Shown piece by piece: positions 6,589-19,276 of a stretch of 64,000 bases of DNA. The stretch spans positions 1,054,001 through 1,118,000 of the forward strand of contig NZ_CP036164.1 in the NCBI RefSeq assembly GCF_004295485.1. The letters are read 5' to 3'. This DNA is from Janibacter limosus. Lineage in GTDB: Bacteria > Actinomycetota > Actinomycetes > Actinomycetales > Dermatophilaceae. Position 1 is the first letter of the stretch; every line of letters starts with the position of its first letter. The position numbers and the translations under genes are program-made. The notes under the pieces are model-generated. The model was given only the letters and a program-made list of their open reading frames with translations. It ran no database searches and was not told the origin of the DNA.

Positions 6589-6661
6589 GGGCCTGTAGCT
6601 CAGTTGGTAGAGCACCGCGTTTACACCGCGGGTGTCGTCGGTTCGAGACCGGCCGGGCCCA
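6589..6661 (+). tRNA. tRNA-Val (anticodon TAC)
   Basis: A 73-base cloverleaf that I folded by hand. The acceptor stem GGGCCTG pairs with CGGGCCC (one T-G pair). The D arm is GCTCAGTTGGTAGAGC, the anticodon stem CCGCG/CGCGG encloses loop TTTACAC (anticodon TAC, reading GUA), and the T arm is GTCGG-TTCGAGA-CCGGC. A73 is the discriminator. The CCA end is not encoded. The nif3 start codon begins two bases after A73, so tRNA 3' processing and nif3 expression are physically linked. Confidence 0.96.
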
Positions 6662-7526: not shown

Positions 7527-8260
7527 AGGCAGACCCCTTCGTCCAGGCACGACTCCTCGACCTGCAGGCGCTGGACACCCGCCTCCAGCAGATCGACCAC
7601 GCGCGCACCCGGGTGCCGCAGATCGCTGCCGTGCAGGAGGCCGGGAGCCGCCTGCAGCAGGTGAGCGACGACGTCGTCCGCGTCGAGACGGGGCTGTCCG
7701 ACATCCGCCGCGAGGTCGATCGCGCCGAGGCCGACGTGCAGCAGGTGCGCGACCGCACCGCCCGCAACACCTCGCGGCTCGAGTCCGGCCAGGGGAGCGC
7801 CAAGGACCTGCAGGCGCTGCAGCACGAGCTGGAGTCGCTGGCACGCCGGCAGGCCGAGCTCGAGGACGTCGAGATCGAGGTGATGGAGCGTCAGGAGAGC
7901 GTCGAGACGCGGCTGGGCGAGCTCACCTCGCAGCGCGCCGAGGTGCAGGCAGAGGTCGACCGGCTGACCGCCGAGCGCGACGCCGCCGTCGCCGAGCTCG
8001 ATGCCGAGCGCATCGAGGTGGCCCGCCCCCGTGACGAGATCGCCGCCAGCATCGACGACGCCCTCCTGGCGCTGTACGAGCGGATCCGCGAGCACTCCGG
8101 CGGCCTGGCCGCCGCCGAGCTCAAGCACGGTCGGTGCGGCGGCTGCCGGCTCGAGCTCAACCCGACCGACCTCGCCGCCATCGACAAGACGGCGAGCAAC
8201 GAGGTCGTCCGCTGCGAGGAGTGCTCCCGCATCCTCGTGCGCACCCACTCCGACGACTGA
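7523..8260 (+). CDS. Coiled-coil protein with C-terminal C4 zinc ribbon (DUF164 type)
   Basis: A 245-residue protein, GTG start overlapping the nif3 stop (GTGA). Residues about 10-175 are a long charged coiled coil of heptad-like E/Q/R/L content. The C-terminus has a zinc ribbon with CGGC and CEEC knuckles spaced about 23 residues apart. The family is common next to nif3 in actinobacteria. Its role is not defined; links to nucleic-acid binding have been proposed for such zinc ribbons. Family assignment is secure, function is inference. Confidence 0.9.
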   Translation: MKADPFVQARLLDLQALDTRLQQIDHARTRVPQIAAVQEAGSRLQQVSDDVVRVETGLSDIRREVDRAEADVQQVRDRTARNTSRLESGQGSAKDLQALQHELESLARRQAELEDVEIEVMERQESVETRLGELTSQRAEVQAEVDRLTAERDAAVAELDAERIEVARPRDEIAASIDDALLALYERIREHSGGLAAAELKHGRCGGCRLELNPTDLAAIDKTASNEVVRCEECSRILVRTHSDD

Positions 8261-8296
8261 TGCCGCCCCGGCCGCCCGCACCTCACGCGAGGCCGG

Positions 8297-8878
8297 ATGG
8301 CCGGCCCGTCTCGTCGTCACCACCTGGACCCGAGGGGGCCTGACATCACCAACGTGCCTGACTGGCTCATCGCCACCGGTCTCATCGGGGCGGTCCTCTT
8401 CGGGCTGCTGTCGGCCTTCTTCCCGCCCCTCAACGCCGAGATCTATGCCCTGGCCGCGCCCGTGATCTTCCCCGACGCGTGGGTCCTGCACGTGTGCGCG
8501 ATGACCGCGGGCCTCGTCGTCGGCAAGATGTCGCACTTCGTCATCGCGGACAAGGGCGCCGAGGCCTACAGCCGCCGACGCGAGGCCAAGGAGGCACGCG
8601 AGGCGGCCGAGCCACGACATCCCTCCGGGCCGATCCGAGGGCGCCTGACCCGGTGGAGCAAGGCGATGATCGACGTGCTCGACCGACCCCGCCTCGGGCC
8701 CTTGGTCATGCTCGGTTCATCGGCGGTCGGCTTCCCACCGCTGGCCGTGGTCACGGTCGCTGCGGGCATCAAGCGGGTCAACATGGTCCTCTTCTTCGTC
8801 GTGACGACGGTGGGGTGCCTCGGCAGGTTCATCGTGACGGCGTGGCTGGTCGCCCGCGGCATGTCCCTCGGCCAATGA
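8297..8878 (+). CDS. Integral membrane protein, possibly DedA/VTT-like
   Basis: A 193-residue protein with hydrophobic segments near residues 24-60, 65-80 and 145-190. A charged cytoplasmic loop rich in R/K/E separates them (SRRREAKEAREAAEPRH). The pattern of a re-entrant N-terminal part ending in a glycine-rich segment is reminiscent of VTT/DedA proteins, but the clear family signature is missing, so this is tentative. ATG 8297 has GAGG a few bases upstream. GTG 8354, which would start just before PDWLIATGLIG, is an equally credible start and removes an odd Arg/His/Pro-rich leader. Confidence 0.7.
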   Translation: MAGPSRRHHLDPRGPDITNVPDWLIATGLIGAVLFGLLSAFFPPLNAEIYALAAPVIFPDAWVLHVCAMTAGLVVGKMSHFVIADKGAEAYSRRREAKEAREAAEPRHPSGPIRGRLTRWSKAMIDVLDRPRLGPLVMLGSSAVGFPPLAVVTVAAGIKRVNMVLFFVVTTVGCLGRFIVTAWLVARGMSLGQ

Positions 8879-13681: not shown

Positions 13682-14062
13682 GGATGAGTCGGCCGGACGG
13701 CTGCGTCACCGCCTCGGCGGTGTCGAGGAAAGTCCGGGCTCCACAGGGCGTGGTGGTGGCCAACAGCCACCCGGGGCGACCCGCGGGACAGTGCCACAGA
13801 AAGCAGACCGCCTCGACCGCTTGCGGGCGAGGTCAGGGTGAAACGGTGGTGTAAGAGACCACCAGCGATCCGGGTGACCGGATCGGCTCGGTAAACCCCA
13901 CCAGGAGCAAGTCCAGACAGTGCGCGTCCGAGGGCTGCCCGCCCGAGTGCACGGGTAGGACGCTGGAGGTCGTCGGCAACGGCGACCCGAGATGGATGGC
14001 CGTCTCGCCGGTACCGGTAACGGTGCCGGATGACAGAACCCGGCTTACAGGCCGACTCATCC
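13682..14062 (+). ncRNA. rnpB: RNase P RNA (class A)
   Basis: This is the catalytic RNA of RNase P, which removes tRNA 5' leaders. Helix P1 is GGATGAGTCGGCC (13682-13694) paired with GGCCGACTCATCC (14050-14062). The interior shows the conserved GAGGAAAGTCCGGGCT and GGGTGAAACGGTGGTG segments, then GGTAAACCCC, and CCCGAGATGGATGG with CAGAACCCGGCTTA at the 3' side. TACACT at 13669-13674 is a good -10 box eight bases before the 5' end. The 3' end doubles as the left end of an integrated element. Confidence 0.97.
14037..14059. repeat. Left attachment-like repeat in the 3' end of rnpB
   Basis: AACCCGGCTTACAGG, one variable base (C here), then CGACTCA. The same 23 bases recur at 19220-19242 with a T at the variable position (22 of 23 identical). 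It lies in the conserved J-region/P1 strand of rnpB, a plausible integration target. Confidence 0.8.
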
Positions 14063-14075
14063 AACCATCCTTGAT

Positions 14076-14366
14076 TTACCGGCGGTTCTGGCCGCTCCCA
14101 GCGGGTCGAGTCCTCACAGAGTCCTCACCACGAACGAGGAGCTCGTCGACCGCTTCCCGGGTCCGCTCGTCGGCGTCACGCCACGAGTGGCTGTAGGTCG
14201 AGAGAGTTTCCTCAGCGCTCTTGTGCCCCACCCGCGCCTGCACCGTGACCGCCGACTCGCCGTGCGCGATGACATGCGCCTGCGCAACCGACACGACACC
14301 TGGGCACCGCTGAACCCGCAGGCCAACGCGCTGGCCTTCACTTGACACCGTGAGACGTGCCTGCAC
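14076..14366 (-). pseudogene. Tyrosine recombinase (phage-type integrase), C-terminal remnant
   Basis: The frame ends with HGESAVTVQARVGHK followed by ETLSTYSHSW, the C-terminal signature of actinobacterial phage integrases. The GH box and the nucleophilic tyrosine (TYSHSW) are present, and the C-terminal tail reads EDSVRTR. Upstream of HGES the frame degenerates: the expected HxLRH box is absent and no integrase N-terminus is found as far as the IS110 gene. It is about 65 recognisable residues of an enzyme usually near 380. The position and orientation (C-terminus toward the attachment site) are typical for an integrase beside attL. Confidence 0.75.
14109..14127. repeat. Left pair of arm-type-like direct repeats
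   Basis: AGTCCTCA occurs at 14109-14116 and 14120-14127, an 11-base period. It is about 50 bases inside the left attachment repeat, within the integrase tail codons. The same arrangement and spacing recurs at 19073-19091. Confidence 0.6.
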
Positions 14367-14498: not shown

Positions 14499-15764
14499 TC
14501 AAGCCGCCTGGTTTTGGGTGGCTCGTCGGTTGGTCAGGACGCGTTGGAGCGCGTGGTGCTTGTCGGGGTCGTAGGCAGCGTTGTCTTGCCAGCAGTGCCA
14601 GATGACGTAGAGCCAGGCGCGGGCGAGGATGCGCACGGCGTGGGCGTGATCGTGTCCGCGGGCTCGGGACCGGTCGTAGAGGTCGGCGGCCCAGAGGTTG
14701 GCGTGTCGGCTGCCGCCGGCGAAGTCGGTGACGGCGTCGCGCAGTTGCTTGTCGCAGGCCCAGCGGAAGCCGACGACGCGCATCTTGCCGGATTGTCGGG
14801 TCGAGGGCGCGACGCCGGCCAGGCAGGCCAGGGATTCGGGGGTGGGGTACTTGGCGCGGCAGTCGCCGATCTCGGCCAGCAGCCGGGCGGCGCGTACGCG
14901 TCCGGAGCGGGGCAGGCTGGTGAAGATGTGCCCGTCGGCGTGGGCGTCGAGCTGGTCGCCGATCTGGCGGCCCAGGATCTTGATCTGCTCGACCAGGGTC
15001 GTCAGCAGCGCGATCATCGCGTGGGTGCTGCCGGCCTCGGCGGTGGCCGCCGGGCCGGTCAGGCCCCTGGGTGCCTGGGTCAGGTGGGCGTGGAGCACGG
15101 CAGGGTCGGTGCGGCCGCTGTAGCCGACCGAGGCCAGCCACTTGCCCAGCCGGGCGGGAGAGAGCCAGTCGGCGCGCTCTTGGGTATCGAAGCGGGCGAT
15201 GAAGGCCAGGCTGATCTCGGAGTCGAGGTCGGCGAACAGGCCCACCGCGCCGGGGAAGACGATGCTCAGGTGGGCGCGCAGCTGGTTGGCGGCGGCGACC
15301 CGGTGGGCCACGAGGTCCTTGCGGGTGCGGCAGGCGCGGCGCAGCGCCGTGGTGGCCTGGGTGTCCGGCTCCAGTCGGCGCAGCCGGGCCCGGTCGGTGC
15401 GCAGGGTGTCGGCGAGCACGAACGCGTCGAAGCGGTCGTCCTTGTTGCCGGCCGAGCCGTACCGGCCGCGCAGGTTCTTGACCTGGTTGGGGCTGATCAC
15501 CACCACCGTCAGTTCGGCCTCGAGGAGGACGTCGATGATCGGCCCGTCGGGTCGTTCGATGGCGACCTCATCGACGCCGTGCTTGGCCAGGAAGATGACC
15601 AGGTCGCGCAGGCCGGTCGTGGTGTGTTCGACCATGACGCGCGCTATTTCGCGGCCGCGGCCGTCGACGATGCACGCGGCGTGGTCATCCACGGCCCAAT
15701 CGATGCCGGCCGTGACGTCGTTGAGTGGGGTTTCGGGCAGGGTGGTGCTGGTGGCAGACTGCAT
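14499..15764 (-). CDS. IS110 family transposase
   Basis: A 421-residue DEDD-type transposase. The N-terminal RuvC-like domain has Asp22 in GIDWA, Glu70 in AIERPDG and the KDDRFDA cluster near residues 108-114. The C-terminal transposase_20 domain shows SLPRSGRVRAARLLAEIGD, then AGVAPSTRQSGK with the serine typical of the family. GAGGAGG lies six bases before the ATG at 15764. It appears intact. IS110 elements lack long terminal inverted repeats and are guided by a bridge RNA encoded in the element's non-coding end. Element ends are estimated near 14480 and 16000, not proven. It sits inside the rnpB-linked element, probably having helped destroy its integrase. Confidence 0.92.
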   Translation of the reverse strand: MQSATSTTLPETPLNDVTAGIDWAVDDHAACIVDGRGREIARVMVEHTTTGLRDLVIFLAKHGVDEVAIERPDGPIIDVLLEAELTVVVISPNQVKNLRGRYGSAGNKDDRFDAFVLADTLRTDRARLRRLEPDTQATTALRRACRTRKDLVAHRVAAANQLRAHLSIVFPGAVGLFADLDSEISLAFIARFDTQERADWLSPARLGKWLASVGYSGRTDPAVLHAHLTQAPRGLTGPAATAEAGSTHAMIALLTTLVEQIKILGRQIGDQLDAHADGHIFTSLPRSGRVRAARLLAEIGDCRAKYPTPESLACLAGVAPSTRQSGKMRVVGFRWACDKQLRDAVTDFAGGSRHANLWAADLYDRSRARGHDHAHAVRILARAWLYVIWHCWQDNAAYDPDKHHALQRVLTNRRATQNQAA

Positions 15765-16010
15765 GTCAGCCTCCTCGCTGCTAGTCCCAGTGGGGAGGCA
15801 CCCTCATGTGGTGCCGCTGGTGCCGGGACGCAGCTGCCGGTTCGCTCACTGATCGGCGCTCGGAGGCGCTCAGCCCTGTCGACGGTCTGCACGTCCCGGG
15901 TAACCACCAGACCTCGCAGATCTCATCGTGGACATCCAACGCATCGAGCGAGCTGGGCGATGGCCTGGTGGCACCTCGGGTGCATCAACGCCCTATCGGA
16001 GAACGCTGAT
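15765..16010 (-). ncRNA. IS110 non-coding end, candidate bridge RNA region
   Basis: About 245 bases upstream of the transposase start contain no convincing gene but several short hairpins, for example GGCACC/GGTGCC around 15797-15815. In IS110-group elements this end encodes the bridge RNA that pairs with donor and target DNA. The assignment comes from position and family knowledge. Loop guides cannot be read without knowing the exact ends. Confidence 0.4.
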
Positions 16011-16027
16011 ACAAGGAAGGTAGACCA

Positions 16028-16200
16028 GTGAGCGCCGAACCGATCGAGGCGCCGATCGCCAAGACGCCGGCCCAGCTCGTCGGCGCGAAGCGTGGCCGGC
16101 TCGTGAAGAAGCTTGGGCTGCCAACCCGTCCGAAGAACGTCGAGAGCAGCGACGACACCGCGGATGGACGAGTCCGTGTTCGGCAAGGCCCCCGAGGCCG
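16028..16200 (+). pseudogene. Unidentified gene remnant with a good start signal
   Basis: AAGGAAGG precedes a GTG at 16028 by eight bases, and the frame begins MSAEPIEAPIAKTPAQLVG then RGRLVKKLGLPTRPKN. After about 45-50 residues the frame loses protein-like character and merely shadows the downstream kinase. A second frame reads MDESVFGKAPEADG and stops at about 16229. I do not recognise either piece. The interval from here to 16476 otherwise shows no gene I can support. It may be a truncated cargo gene or the scar of an older insertion. Confidence 0.3.
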
Positions 16201-16476
16201 ACGGCCTCCCCTCGTGTACGACGGCCTGACGCAAGGCGCTACTGCGGTTGCTGTCCCGTGGCCGAGGCCTGCCGCGCCGACGGTCGCCGCTCGCACCTCA
16301 GCGGGCTGGCCGGCGGCGAAGGGAGTCACCCGACGCGGTGGTGGCCCCTGGAGGGCCCGCGGAACCCTCGAGGCCAGCGCTGGCAGCCGGGCCGCAAGAG
16401 TCGGGCCCGCCAGCCGCGGCGAGGGACAGGTGGCAGGCCTCCCACCTTCGCTCGTCGTCGGTGGGAGGATCTGCGC

Positions 16477-17313
16477 GTGGCCGTCGTCGATGTCAGCTCA
16501 TGGAGCTCGATCCAACCCGAGCAAGGCGGCCTCGACGCTCGCAAGGAATGGCTCTCACTCGTCGGCGACGCCCCGCGCGACGAGTGGTGGCTGTGGAAGC
16601 CGCTCAAGGAGACCGGATCCTTGGAAGGGACTCGCCCGACGCGCATCAACGACGTGGCGGAGATGGTCGCCCACCACCTGGCTGAGGCGATCGGCCTCCC
16701 TTCGGCACCGTGCAAGTACGCCGTCCGGGACGGGGAGCGGGGGATCATCTCGCGCCAGATCGCCCCTCACCTCTACGAGCTGTCCCCGGGCAGCGCATGG
16801 GGCGCGCAGGGGGGCGACGGCTACACCGTGGACAGCATCCTGAGCGTCCTGGAGGGCCTGACCGGCCCGCCACCCTGCGAGGGCATGAGCGCCGCCGAGG
16901 TCTTCACCGGCTATCTCGTCCTCGATGCGTGGATCGGCAACACCGATCGCCACGAAGAGAATTGGGCGGTCATCGAGCCACCCGACGGCACTGCCTACCT
17001 CGCACCCACCTTCGATCACGGCAGCGCGCTCGGGTCGGGCATGACCAACGATCGCCGCGAGCGATGCGACCGGCACGCGTGGTGCGCACGAGGCAAGTCC
17101 CGCGCTTTCAAGCGCCCGCTCATCGACATTGCTCGGGAGGCCGTCGACCTGACCGGCGCGGCGTGGTGGGCTGACCGGGTGGCCACTGTTCATCCCGCGA
17201 CGTGGACGGCCATACTGGACGAGCACGGCGCGTTGTCAGACCTCACCCGTAGTTTCGTGAGCGACGTCCTGACGATCAACCAAGAGAGGGTGAGCGAAGC
17301 ATGTCGACCATGA
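16477..17313 (+). CDS. HipA-like (HipT-size) protein kinase domain protein
   Basis: A 278-residue kinase of the HipA superfamily. Residues 38-42 (WLWKP) hold the likely ATP-binding lysine (Lys41), GIISR near 89-93 is the activation-region segment, GNTDRHEENW (154-163) carries catalytic Asp157, and PTFDHGSALG (177-186) carries the metal-binding Asp180. It lacks the N-subdomain 1 of the 440-residue E. coli HipA, so it is the size of HipT of tripartite HipBST systems. GTG 16477 was chosen for GGGAGG about eight bases upstream. It overlaps the HIRAN gene by 13 bases. No HipB-type helix-turn-helix gene is adjacent. HipA kinases phosphorylate aminoacyl-tRNA synthetases; the target here is unknown. 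Confidence 0.85.
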   Translation: MAVVDVSSWSSIQPEQGGLDARKEWLSLVGDAPRDEWWLWKPLKETGSLEGTRPTRINDVAEMVAHHLAEAIGLPSAPCKYAVRDGERGIISRQIAPHLYELSPGSAWGAQGGDGYTVDSILSVLEGLTGPPPCEGMSAAEVFTGYLVLDAWIGNTDRHEENWAVIEPPDGTAYLAPTFDHGSALGSGMTNDRRERCDRHAWCARGKSRAFKRPLIDIAREAVDLTGAAWWADRVATVHPATWTAILDEHGALSDLTRSFVSDVLTINQERVSEACRP

Positions 17314-17966
17314 CCCGCACGACACGCCTGCTCGTGACGCGACGCGATCCGCACACGGGCGCCTATGCGCCTGTCGGCGAGCTCACCCGCGACCCACAGA
17401 CGCAGCGCTACGCCTTCGCCTACCGGCCCGGCGTCACGCGCAAGTTGCCCGGCCTGCCCTTGGGCACCGTCAGCACTTCAGATGTCCTCTTCCCCCTCTT
17501 CGGGCACCGCATCACCTCCCCCCGTCGCGCTGACCACGGCGACACACTCGGGTTGCTCGACCTCGAGCCGGCGGCCGAGCCCTTCGAGGTGCTGGAACGC
17601 TCCGGTGGTCGCAGCGCCACGGACACGCTCGAGCTGACGCCGATCCCGGACCCGGGCCCCTTCGAGGTCCACTTCCTCGTCCACGGCATCCGGCACCTCG
17701 ACGAGGAGGAGCAAGCACGGATCGACACGCTTGAGCCGGGGCAGAGCGTGACCCTGACCCCCGAGCCCGACAACGAGGTCGACTGCCTTGCGGTCCTCGT
17801 GACCGATGACGGCCACCGCCTCGGTTACGTACCTCGACCCTTGCTCGAGTACGTGCGTCCGGCGATGGGGCACCCCCACGAGCTGACCGTCGAGCGGATC
17901 AACTCGCCTGCAGCTGGGTTCCACATGCGCCTGCTCGTGCGCCTGGCTGGCCACTTGCCCGCCTAG
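17301..17966 (+). CDS. HIRAN domain protein with HipS-like N-terminus
   Basis: A 221-residue protein whose ATG lies inside the end of the kinase gene. Residues about 10-75 (RDPHTGAYAPVGELTRD, then YAFAYRPG and DVLFPLFGHRI) resemble the beta-rich N-subdomain 1 of HipA, which is a separate protein, HipS, in HipBST systems. Residues about 120-215 form a HIRAN domain: FLVHGIRH, LTPEPDNEVD and HRLGYVPR are its conserved strands. The linker carries SGGRSATDTLEL, often seen in such proteins. HIRAN domains of eukaryotic HLTF bind DNA 3' ends. The likely role is partner or inhibitor of the kinase, which is inference. The HIRAN call is strong, the HipS similarity is moderate. Confidence 0.78.
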   Translation: MSTMTRTTRLLVTRRDPHTGAYAPVGELTRDPQTQRYAFAYRPGVTRKLPGLPLGTVSTSDVLFPLFGHRITSPRRADHGDTLGLLDLEPAAEPFEVLERSGGRSATDTLELTPIPDPGPFEVHFLVHGIRHLDEEEQARIDTLEPGQSVTLTPEPDNEVDCLAVLVTDDGHRLGYVPRPLLEYVRPAMGHPHELTVERINSPAAGFHMRLLVRLAGHLPA

Positions 17967-18032: not shown

Positions 18033-18608
18033 ATGGACGTCGTCGCGCTCGTGCTCGCCGGGCTCTCTCTCCTGGTCGCCGTGCTCGCCCTTTTCAGCTC
18101 CCACAGCAGGGCCAACGAGTCCAACCGCCTCGCGCGTGAGGCGCTTGCTGAGGCCCGCTCGAGCAAGGTCGGAGACATATGGGCGGCCGTTATCCGATCC
18201 GTCAATCACCGGATGACGTTCAACCCCACAGCCGAGGACGCTGGGCCCATGCTGCGCGACGCGCGGGCCGACCTCATGGCGCTGGTCGACGCCCTGCCGG
18301 AGTGGGGGGCGCTAGGAGAGTGGGCAGCTCACGAGCAGGCCCTCGGAGCCCTGGCGGCCCACGCCGACCTCGAGGACATGACGTCAGACCCTCAGCGCCT
18401 GCCAGAACACTCCGCCCGATGGGGTGCCGCCTTCGTCATCAACCTCCGCCGCTTCCGCGCGACCGGCTACGACGAGCAGATGATGCGACGGCTCACGGAC
18501 AACGCGCGCGAGCAGAGCAGGCATGTGTGCGCGGCGCGAGGCTGGGAGCTCCCTCCCGAGGCGATGCCCGGCATCGCGCTGCTCGACGAGACCCCCGAGA
18601 AGCCGTAG
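18033..18608 (+). CDS. Uncharacterised single-pass membrane protein
   Basis: A 191-residue protein with one N-terminal transmembrane helix (about residues 3-22) followed by a positively charged stretch, so a type II or signal-anchor topology is likely. The rest is a soluble, mostly helical domain with no motif I recognise. TAGTGT at 18021-18026 lies six bases before the ATG, suggesting an independent leaderless transcript. It lies in the rnpB-linked element just after the kinase-HIRAN pair, so it could be a membrane effector or simply cargo. Confidence 0.75.
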   Translation: MDVVALVLAGLSLLVAVLALFSSHSRANESNRLAREALAEARSSKVGDIWAAVIRSVNHRMTFNPTAEDAGPMLRDARADLMALVDALPEWGALGEWAAHEQALGALAAHADLEDMTSDPQRLPEHSARWGAAFVINLRRFRATGYDEQMMRRLTDNAREQSRHVCAARGWELPPEAMPGIALLDETPEKP

Positions 18609-18622
18609 CGCAGACGGACCAG

Positions 18623-18814
18623 TCATTGCGACCGACCATCCAGCCACACCACGGCCAGCCCTGCACCCGCTGCCACACTGAACGGCGCCGAGCTGGCAAT
18701 TACCCATCCCGTCACGCCCGACCCACCGCTCAGCATCCACGCCAAGGCGGCGGTCAGGAACAGCACGCCGACACCAGCGCACACAGCGGCCAGGACCAGC
18801 AGAAAAGTCCTCAT
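18623..18814 (-). CDS. Small two-helix membrane protein
   Basis: A 63-residue protein with two hydrophobic helices (about residues 4-27 and 36-56), a Gly-rich turn and a short charged tail. It is convergent with the 191-residue gene. No family is recognised. Composition and membrane pattern are protein-like, but short length limits confidence. Confidence 0.5.
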   Translation of the reverse strand: MRTFLLVLAAVCAGVGVLFLTAALAWMLSGGSGVTGWVIASSAPFSVAAGAGLAVVWLDGRSQ

Positions 18815-18906
18815 GCGGTGAGAGTAGCGGGGAGGTGGTGCGCGGATAGAGGAGTGACCGGGGCCAAGTCGCGCCGCCGGTCGTCATCTCCTGTTAGATA
18901 AGGCCC

Positions 18907-19091: not shown

Positions 19092-19219
19092 AGATATCCA
19101 CCAGAGACACGAAACAACCATCGGCGTCCGTCGGCCTCGTGGGGCTCAAAATCCCCGGAATACCGGGGCGCCCATCGACTTTCGACGACAATCGTCGTAA
19201 CTGTTAGGACGCATGGGAC

Positions 19220-19242
19220 AACCCGGCTTACAGGTCGACTCA
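19220..19242. repeat. Right attachment-like repeat (partial copy of rnpB 3' end)
   Basis: AACCCGGCTTACAGG, T, CGACTCA repeats the rnpB 3' segment at 14037-14059 with one mismatch. No other part of rnpB is present here, so this is an att-type duplication and not a second rnpB gene. From 19021 to 19276 I see no gene. Confidence 0.8.
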
Positions 19243-19276
19243 CCCCACACCCCTCGTCATTGGGGTGCAGGCGCGC

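Follow-up and report, generated by a model that had tools for sequence, protein, structure and literature searches.

Within the 64,000-nt stretch of the Janibacter limosus chromosome analysed here (the window), two overlapping genes constitute, as judged from their sequence, a genuine and intact hipIN/PDC-M03 module, in which a compact HipA-family kinase is followed by a partner joining a HipS-like domain to a HIRAN domain. The hipI-like gene (PDC-M03A; 16477..17313, + strand) starts with GTG, is preceded by a ribosome-binding-like site and encodes 278 aa corresponding to a core kinase only. The hipN-like gene (PDC-M03B; 17301..17966, + strand) starts with ATG and encodes 221 aa. Both frames are intact and overlap by 13 nt, exactly as described in the initial annotation. 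Pfam recognizes HipA_C in the kinase (E 1e-8) and HIRAN in the partner (E 1.2e-7), and PADLOC, which gathers known and candidate families of phage defence, matches them over nearly their whole length to PDC-M03A (E 2e-84) and PDC-M03B (E 2e-65), respectively. NCBIfam gave no match at E 1 for either gene. At the level of sequence, a chance origin of the pair is excluded.

This module was predicted and named hipIN by Gerdes, Baerentsen and Brodersen in 2021 (mBio; PMC8262856). In their description, a HipI kinase devoid of N-subdomain 1 is followed by HipN, made of a HipS-like domain and a HIRAN domain (PMC8262856). The window pair is not new in kind and belongs to hipIN, which it resembles by the kinase-then-partner order, the missing N-subdomain 1 and the HipS-like/HIRAN partner; its 278-aa kinase compares with 279-321 aa for the small-kinase families described there (PMC8262856). 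The idea of an abortive infection triggered by DNA-end sensing is not new either, since it was published in 2021: Gerdes et al. proposed that HIRAN recognizes the DNA ends of invading phages, leading to kinase activation (PMC8262856). In PADLOC-DB, hipIN is entered as PDC-M03, a candidate defence system. No experimental test of hipIN was found in the papers searched, though one could exist in subscription papers, bioRxiv preprints or supplements. Computation reveals the folds, the intact kinase motifs, the tight gene coupling, the natural fusions and the mobile contexts of hipIN, and what the present analysis adds is the counts of gene coupling, the rnpB island and the prophage-hotspot contexts. 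Compared with other hipIN, the window module lacks Ser/Thr in the Gly-rich loop of its kinase, carries a strongly acidic HIRAN domain and sits in an rnpB island.

The core motifs of a HipA-family kinase are present in the window HipI, and K41, E62, N155, D157, N162 and D180 are intact, these residues being invariant in all 60 aligned kinase rows. Lys41, Asp157, Asp180 and the missing N-subdomain 1 had already been pointed out from the sequence, correctly so. Ser/Thr are absent from the Gly-rich loop (residues 17-23) of the window kinase, whereas they are present in 36/60 rows. Haemoglobin matches (E 0.0013 and up) involve a short stretch only and were rejected as spurious. On one viral contig, a HipI-type kinase (L118:7671-8828) for which no HipN was detected carries His instead of the invariant Asn155.

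The structure of the window HipN is predicted with confidence to contain a HipS fold at residues 7-115 and a HIRAN fold at residues 117-221, in agreement with the HipS-like N-terminus and C-terminal HIRAN domain proposed initially. All invariant HipN residues are present, including Arg70 and Arg76, which are found in 69/69 rows. In E. coli, HipS inhibits through Trp65, a plug found in many but not all HipS proteins (PMC10627512). No Trp stands at columns 65-81 in any of the 69 HipN rows, the equivalence of this loop being drawn from an alignment register extended beyond its last aligned residue. As Trp65 has no counterpart in HipN, inhibition by HipN, if real, would work differently. Direct control of the kinase is nevertheless the likeliest reading because HipN possesses a HipS-like half.

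The HIRAN half of the window HipN has a net charge of -9, against a family median of -4, the charge being negative in 57 of the 69 proteins. In the HIRAN domain of HLTF, the DNA-contact set is taken here as R71, Y72, N91, Y93 and D94. The window domain shares the fold of the HLTF/Rad5 HIRAN domains and, when aligned with HLTF, keeps R71, N91 and D94 as R131, N158 and D161, but it differs by its acidity and by His132 and Val160 at the positions of Tyr72 and Tyr93. All five contacts are kept in 4/69 HipN rows, even with Phe allowed at position 160. When the rows are split by hand into actinobacterial and other ones, Tyr132 occurs in 6/46 versus 10/23, and Tyr/Phe160 in 9/46 versus 11/23. According to Gerdes et al., most HIRAN domains retain the majority of the DNA-contact motifs, those of actinobacterial HipN excepted (PMC8262856). 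Because the HIRAN domain is acidic and the HLTF contact set incomplete, DNA-end sensing is in doubt, above all in this actinobacterial branch of hipIN, where it appears weakened. The initial interpretation stands for the architecture and the conservation of the pair, but its proposal that HIRAN senses DNA ends loses weight here in view of the net charge of -9, His132 and Val160.

For hipIN, we infer an inhibition, a docking mode, a target, a signal and an anti-phage outcome that would be linked as follows. HipN would hold HipI inactive, its HipS-like domain docking at the site occupied by N-subdomain 1 in HipA. The HIRAN domain would act as a sensor: on a signal that foreign DNA is invading or replicating, the complex would change and release the kinase. 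Free HipI would then phosphorylate an essential host protein, possibly an aminoacyl-tRNA synthetase by analogy with the studied HipA and HipT relatives, so that growth would stop, resulting in abortive infection or inter-phage exclusion. Our leaning, held with moderate confidence, is towards this kinase kept inactive by HipN and released on a foreign-DNA signal. It is slightly less sure because a model of the fused protein yields no HipS among the 50 matches listed and because the P2-type prophage loci represent few independent events. If a HIRAN sensor does release a HipA-family kinase during phage infection, toxins of this sort would have a trigger of a novel type.

Several known systems come close to this architecture. 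In HipBST (HipS/HipT/HipB; E. coli O127 and others), the HipS gene lies upstream, whereas the kinase gene comes first in the window (PMC10627512, PMC9325769); in addition, the window pair has an extra HIRAN domain and its kinase belongs to a different branch. The absence of HipB anticipated by the initial annotation is borne out as far as the flanks are concerned: no Pfam family reached a cut-off in the six flanking frames scanned (16028-16843 +, 18033-18608 +, 15985-16329 -, 15923-16234 -, 16248-16685 + and 18384-18887 -), and no helix-turn-helix (HTH) gene was recognized among them. With no HTH gene recognized, a reversed gene order and no Trp65, membership of HipBST was rejected. HipL has the three domains of the pair, arranged alike, but in one gene instead of two (PMC8262856). 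Two fusions on viral contigs are HipL-like. To our knowledge, CtkA has no HipN partner. This Helicobacter pylori kinase (PDB 3akj, 3akk, 3akl) is a stand-alone protein, unlike the paired window kinase.

The two genes are tightly coupled. Among 394 genomes of the class, the hipI profile matched 39, of which 12 strongly and the others at no more than 40 bits, and the hipN profile matched 17, including the same 12 strongly. In one of these 12 (G147), the kinase is in pieces with a stop. The five other genomes matched by hipN comprise two with partial copies and no kinase match (G021, G097) and three scoring under 23 bits; a second, partial hipN copy occurs in G357. No blastp relative of the window HipN was found at 18 fetched loci with weak hipI matches (L014-L031). 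From genome contigs, at least 478 hipI relatives were confirmed and 80 kept, and a HipN sequence lies directly downstream on the same strand in all 80, although it is incomplete in three (L079, L091, L111). From viral contigs, 128 relatives were confirmed and 80 kept, giving 77 pairs, two fusions and one partnerless kinase (L118). The genes overlap in 77/90 pairs, as counted with heuristically chosen starts and with some loci counted twice. Gene completeness was assessed in 161 loci, i.e., the 160 kept genome and viral loci plus L013. Both genes are near full length in 151; a split or short kinase accompanies a full HipN in six, one being a fusion (L190) and five bicistronic; a near-full kinase goes with an incomplete or absent HipN in three, and neither gene is full in one. 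With five bicistronic loci of the first kind against three of the second, decay displays no clear asymmetry that would mark out a toxin and an antitoxin. The initial annotation had staked its proposal on a HipS-like fold and on conservation of the pair; both were looked for and both were found. The distribution of hipIN extends over Actinobacteria, Cyanobacteria, Proteobacteria and Planctomycetes, besides viral contigs.

In the two fusions (L184:7983-9533 and L190:7516-9162), kinase, HipS-like and HIRAN domains are encoded by a single gene in operon order. A fold search with a fusion model returned no HipS among the best 50 matches, the order of the domains being permuted with respect to HipA and the model coming without inter-domain error. 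Such natural single-chain proteins would also suit a different view, in which HipN, rather than acting as an antitoxin, supplies the regulatory part of an enzyme split in two. The HipS-like domain would complete the kinase fold in the manner of N-subdomain 1 in HipA, and the kinase would be brought by HIRAN to DNA ends or forks, its substrate there being a protein of repair or replication. In this view, hipIN would be a DNA-damage or replication-stress kinase. The missing Trp65 plug together with Arg70 and Arg76 conserved in 69/69 HipN fits this view, as does the role of HIRAN in fork remodelling in HLTF (PMC8262856). It is nonetheless unlikely, since a patchy spread (1/16 genomes of the genus, 12/394 of the class) and mobile contexts do not match a housekeeping repair function, and the window HIRAN is acidic.

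The kinase held by HipN and released on a foreign-DNA signal, which we prefer, agrees better with where hipIN is found. Among 72,556 plasmid records, the kinase occurs on eight and the partner on eight, with seven in common. Among 50,697 phage records, the kinase occurs on four, all from Vibrio; the three that were opened (L032, L033, L034) are corticovirus-like, with hipI and hipN overlapping by 4 nt beside an integrase. In 28 of the 79 viral loci holding both hipI and hipN, hipIN is located between relatives of P2 gpA (replication) and gpQ (portal). When the 80 viral kinases are grouped at 90% identity, 39 clusters result, of which three contain P2 gpA-gpQ loci, hence few independent events. 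A near-identical copy of one P2-type pair is present in 21/5426 E. coli genomes. One annotated E. coli locus that was opened (L258:2506-7652) displays a replication endonuclease, a SIR2-HerA pair known to PADLOC, hipI-hipN and the portal gene. Rousset et al. (2022) described the P2 gpA-gpQ locus as a defence hotspot with tested systems, which also holds some non-defence cargo (PMC9122126); a term search of the main text of that paper retrieved neither HipA nor HIRAN (PMC9122126). That phages and mobile islands carry hipIN suggests that it takes part in phage-bacteria conflicts, and these mobile and prophage-hotspot settings lend support to the anti-phage reading. The gpA-gpQ pair of E. coli offers a ready laboratory system for the idea of a release through HIRAN.

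The same mobile contexts could reflect a selfish addiction module that stabilizes the island without acting against viruses and in which HIRAN only tunes the stability or localization of the antitoxin. An overlap between the genes is compatible with toxin-antitoxin coupling, the module occurs on an island, on viral contigs and on plasmids (eight records for each gene, seven in common), and partial hipN copies persist without kinase in 2/394 genomes. In typical toxin-antitoxin operons, the antitoxin gene comes first. The kinase gene precedes its partner here, full-length HipN including HIRAN is retained in 157/161 loci, and the module is found within a prophage defence hotspot, in one case next to SIR2-HerA, which makes this explanation quite improbable.

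Clustering of the neighbours of the 80 genome loci, two phage loci and the window disclosed no third conserved partner gene, only hipI and hipN recurring throughout. The next commonest neighbours are a tyrosine integrase in six loci and HsdM-like and HsdR-like proteins in three each; one further cluster of six loci consists of unclear frames. One member each of the integrase, exonuclease, HsdM-like and HsdR-like clusters was checked by Pfam, and the neighbours of most bacterial hipIN loci do not cluster together. A 3'-5' exonuclease of the DNA_pol_A_exo1 family lies beside hipIN in 3/80 genome loci (L068, L078, and L108 at 7726-8412), a setting that resembles a published neighbourhood of deoxydinucleotide-specific nucleases (diDNases). 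About one third of the genes for such nucleases adjoin genes for HipA and HIRAN domains (PMC11706625). It is conceivable, with little credence on our side, that the actinobacterial HIRAN has been retuned away from DNA-end binding to another signal, such as deoxydinucleotides released by DNA degradation or a phage protein, and that Arg70/Arg76 of the HipS-like domain serve as the kinase switch in place of the Trp plug. If so, the neighbouring exonuclease and deoxydinucleotide nucleases would be ligand-removing partners. A search of the window for a relative of the hipIN-adjacent exonuclease found none.

In the window, the module is enclosed in a 5.2-kb island at rnpB. The gene for RNase P RNA class A (RF00010; 309 bits) lies at 13685..14063 (+ strand), and the island is inserted at the 3' end of this gene, which carries the left, attL-like copy of a 39-nt direct repeat (14027..14065, + strand). 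The right, attR-like copy (19210..19248, + strand) is 82% identical to the left one, the repeat starts being 5183 nt apart. Between them, a tyrosine integrase remnant (14106..14273, - strand) retains 56 aa near the C-terminus with 70% identity to the integrase of another genome of the genus (G007), and an IS110-family transposase (14499..15764, - strand) stands between this remnant and hipI. In G007, two repeat copies enclose a 12.2-kb stretch at rnpB; the integrase next to rnpB is intact there (364 aa; Pfam Phage_integrase), and a 640-aa gene of this element has no Pfam match at E 0.01. With up to three mismatches allowed, a single copy of the repeat core is present in 11 of the 13 relatives fetched, and two copies in both G006 and G007. 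The flanking genes for GDT1 and a permease were matched in all 16 genomes of the genus, that of the window included. For 13 of the 15 others, both genes are close to each other on one contig, with a spacing of 446-550 nt (six genomes), 1.6-2.5 kb (six genomes) or 12.7 kb (G007); they lie on separate contigs in G014 and far apart in G002. Within this genus, the 3' end of rnpB serves as a site of integration. As a target, a tRNA was rejected in favour of rnpB, since a search of the window retrieved a single tRNA, at 6589. Base composition displays no sharp island signature in the window.

With the integrase remnant, the repeats, the IS110 element, the G007 element and hipI found in 1/16 genomes of the genus (not in the 15 others), the window module looks like the cargo of a decayed, apparently immobile element at the rnpB site. 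That it is itself an inert passenger whose kinase or expression has failed, as the integrase reduced to its C-terminal remnant and the IS110 element just upstream of hipI might suggest, is very unlikely given two intact frames, the invariant kinase and HipN residues and the ribosome-binding-like site before hipI. An IS110 element is also found on a Mycolicibacterium vanbaalenii plasmid (L259), where it is located between hipI and hipN, while it lies upstream of hipI in the window. The island gene 3' of hipN (18033..18608, + strand) encodes an uncharacterised protein of 191 aa with an N-terminal hydrophobic stretch recognized by eye, and a weak relative of this protein (30% over 151 aa) is encoded beside hipIN in Serinicoccus (L035:7816-8265).
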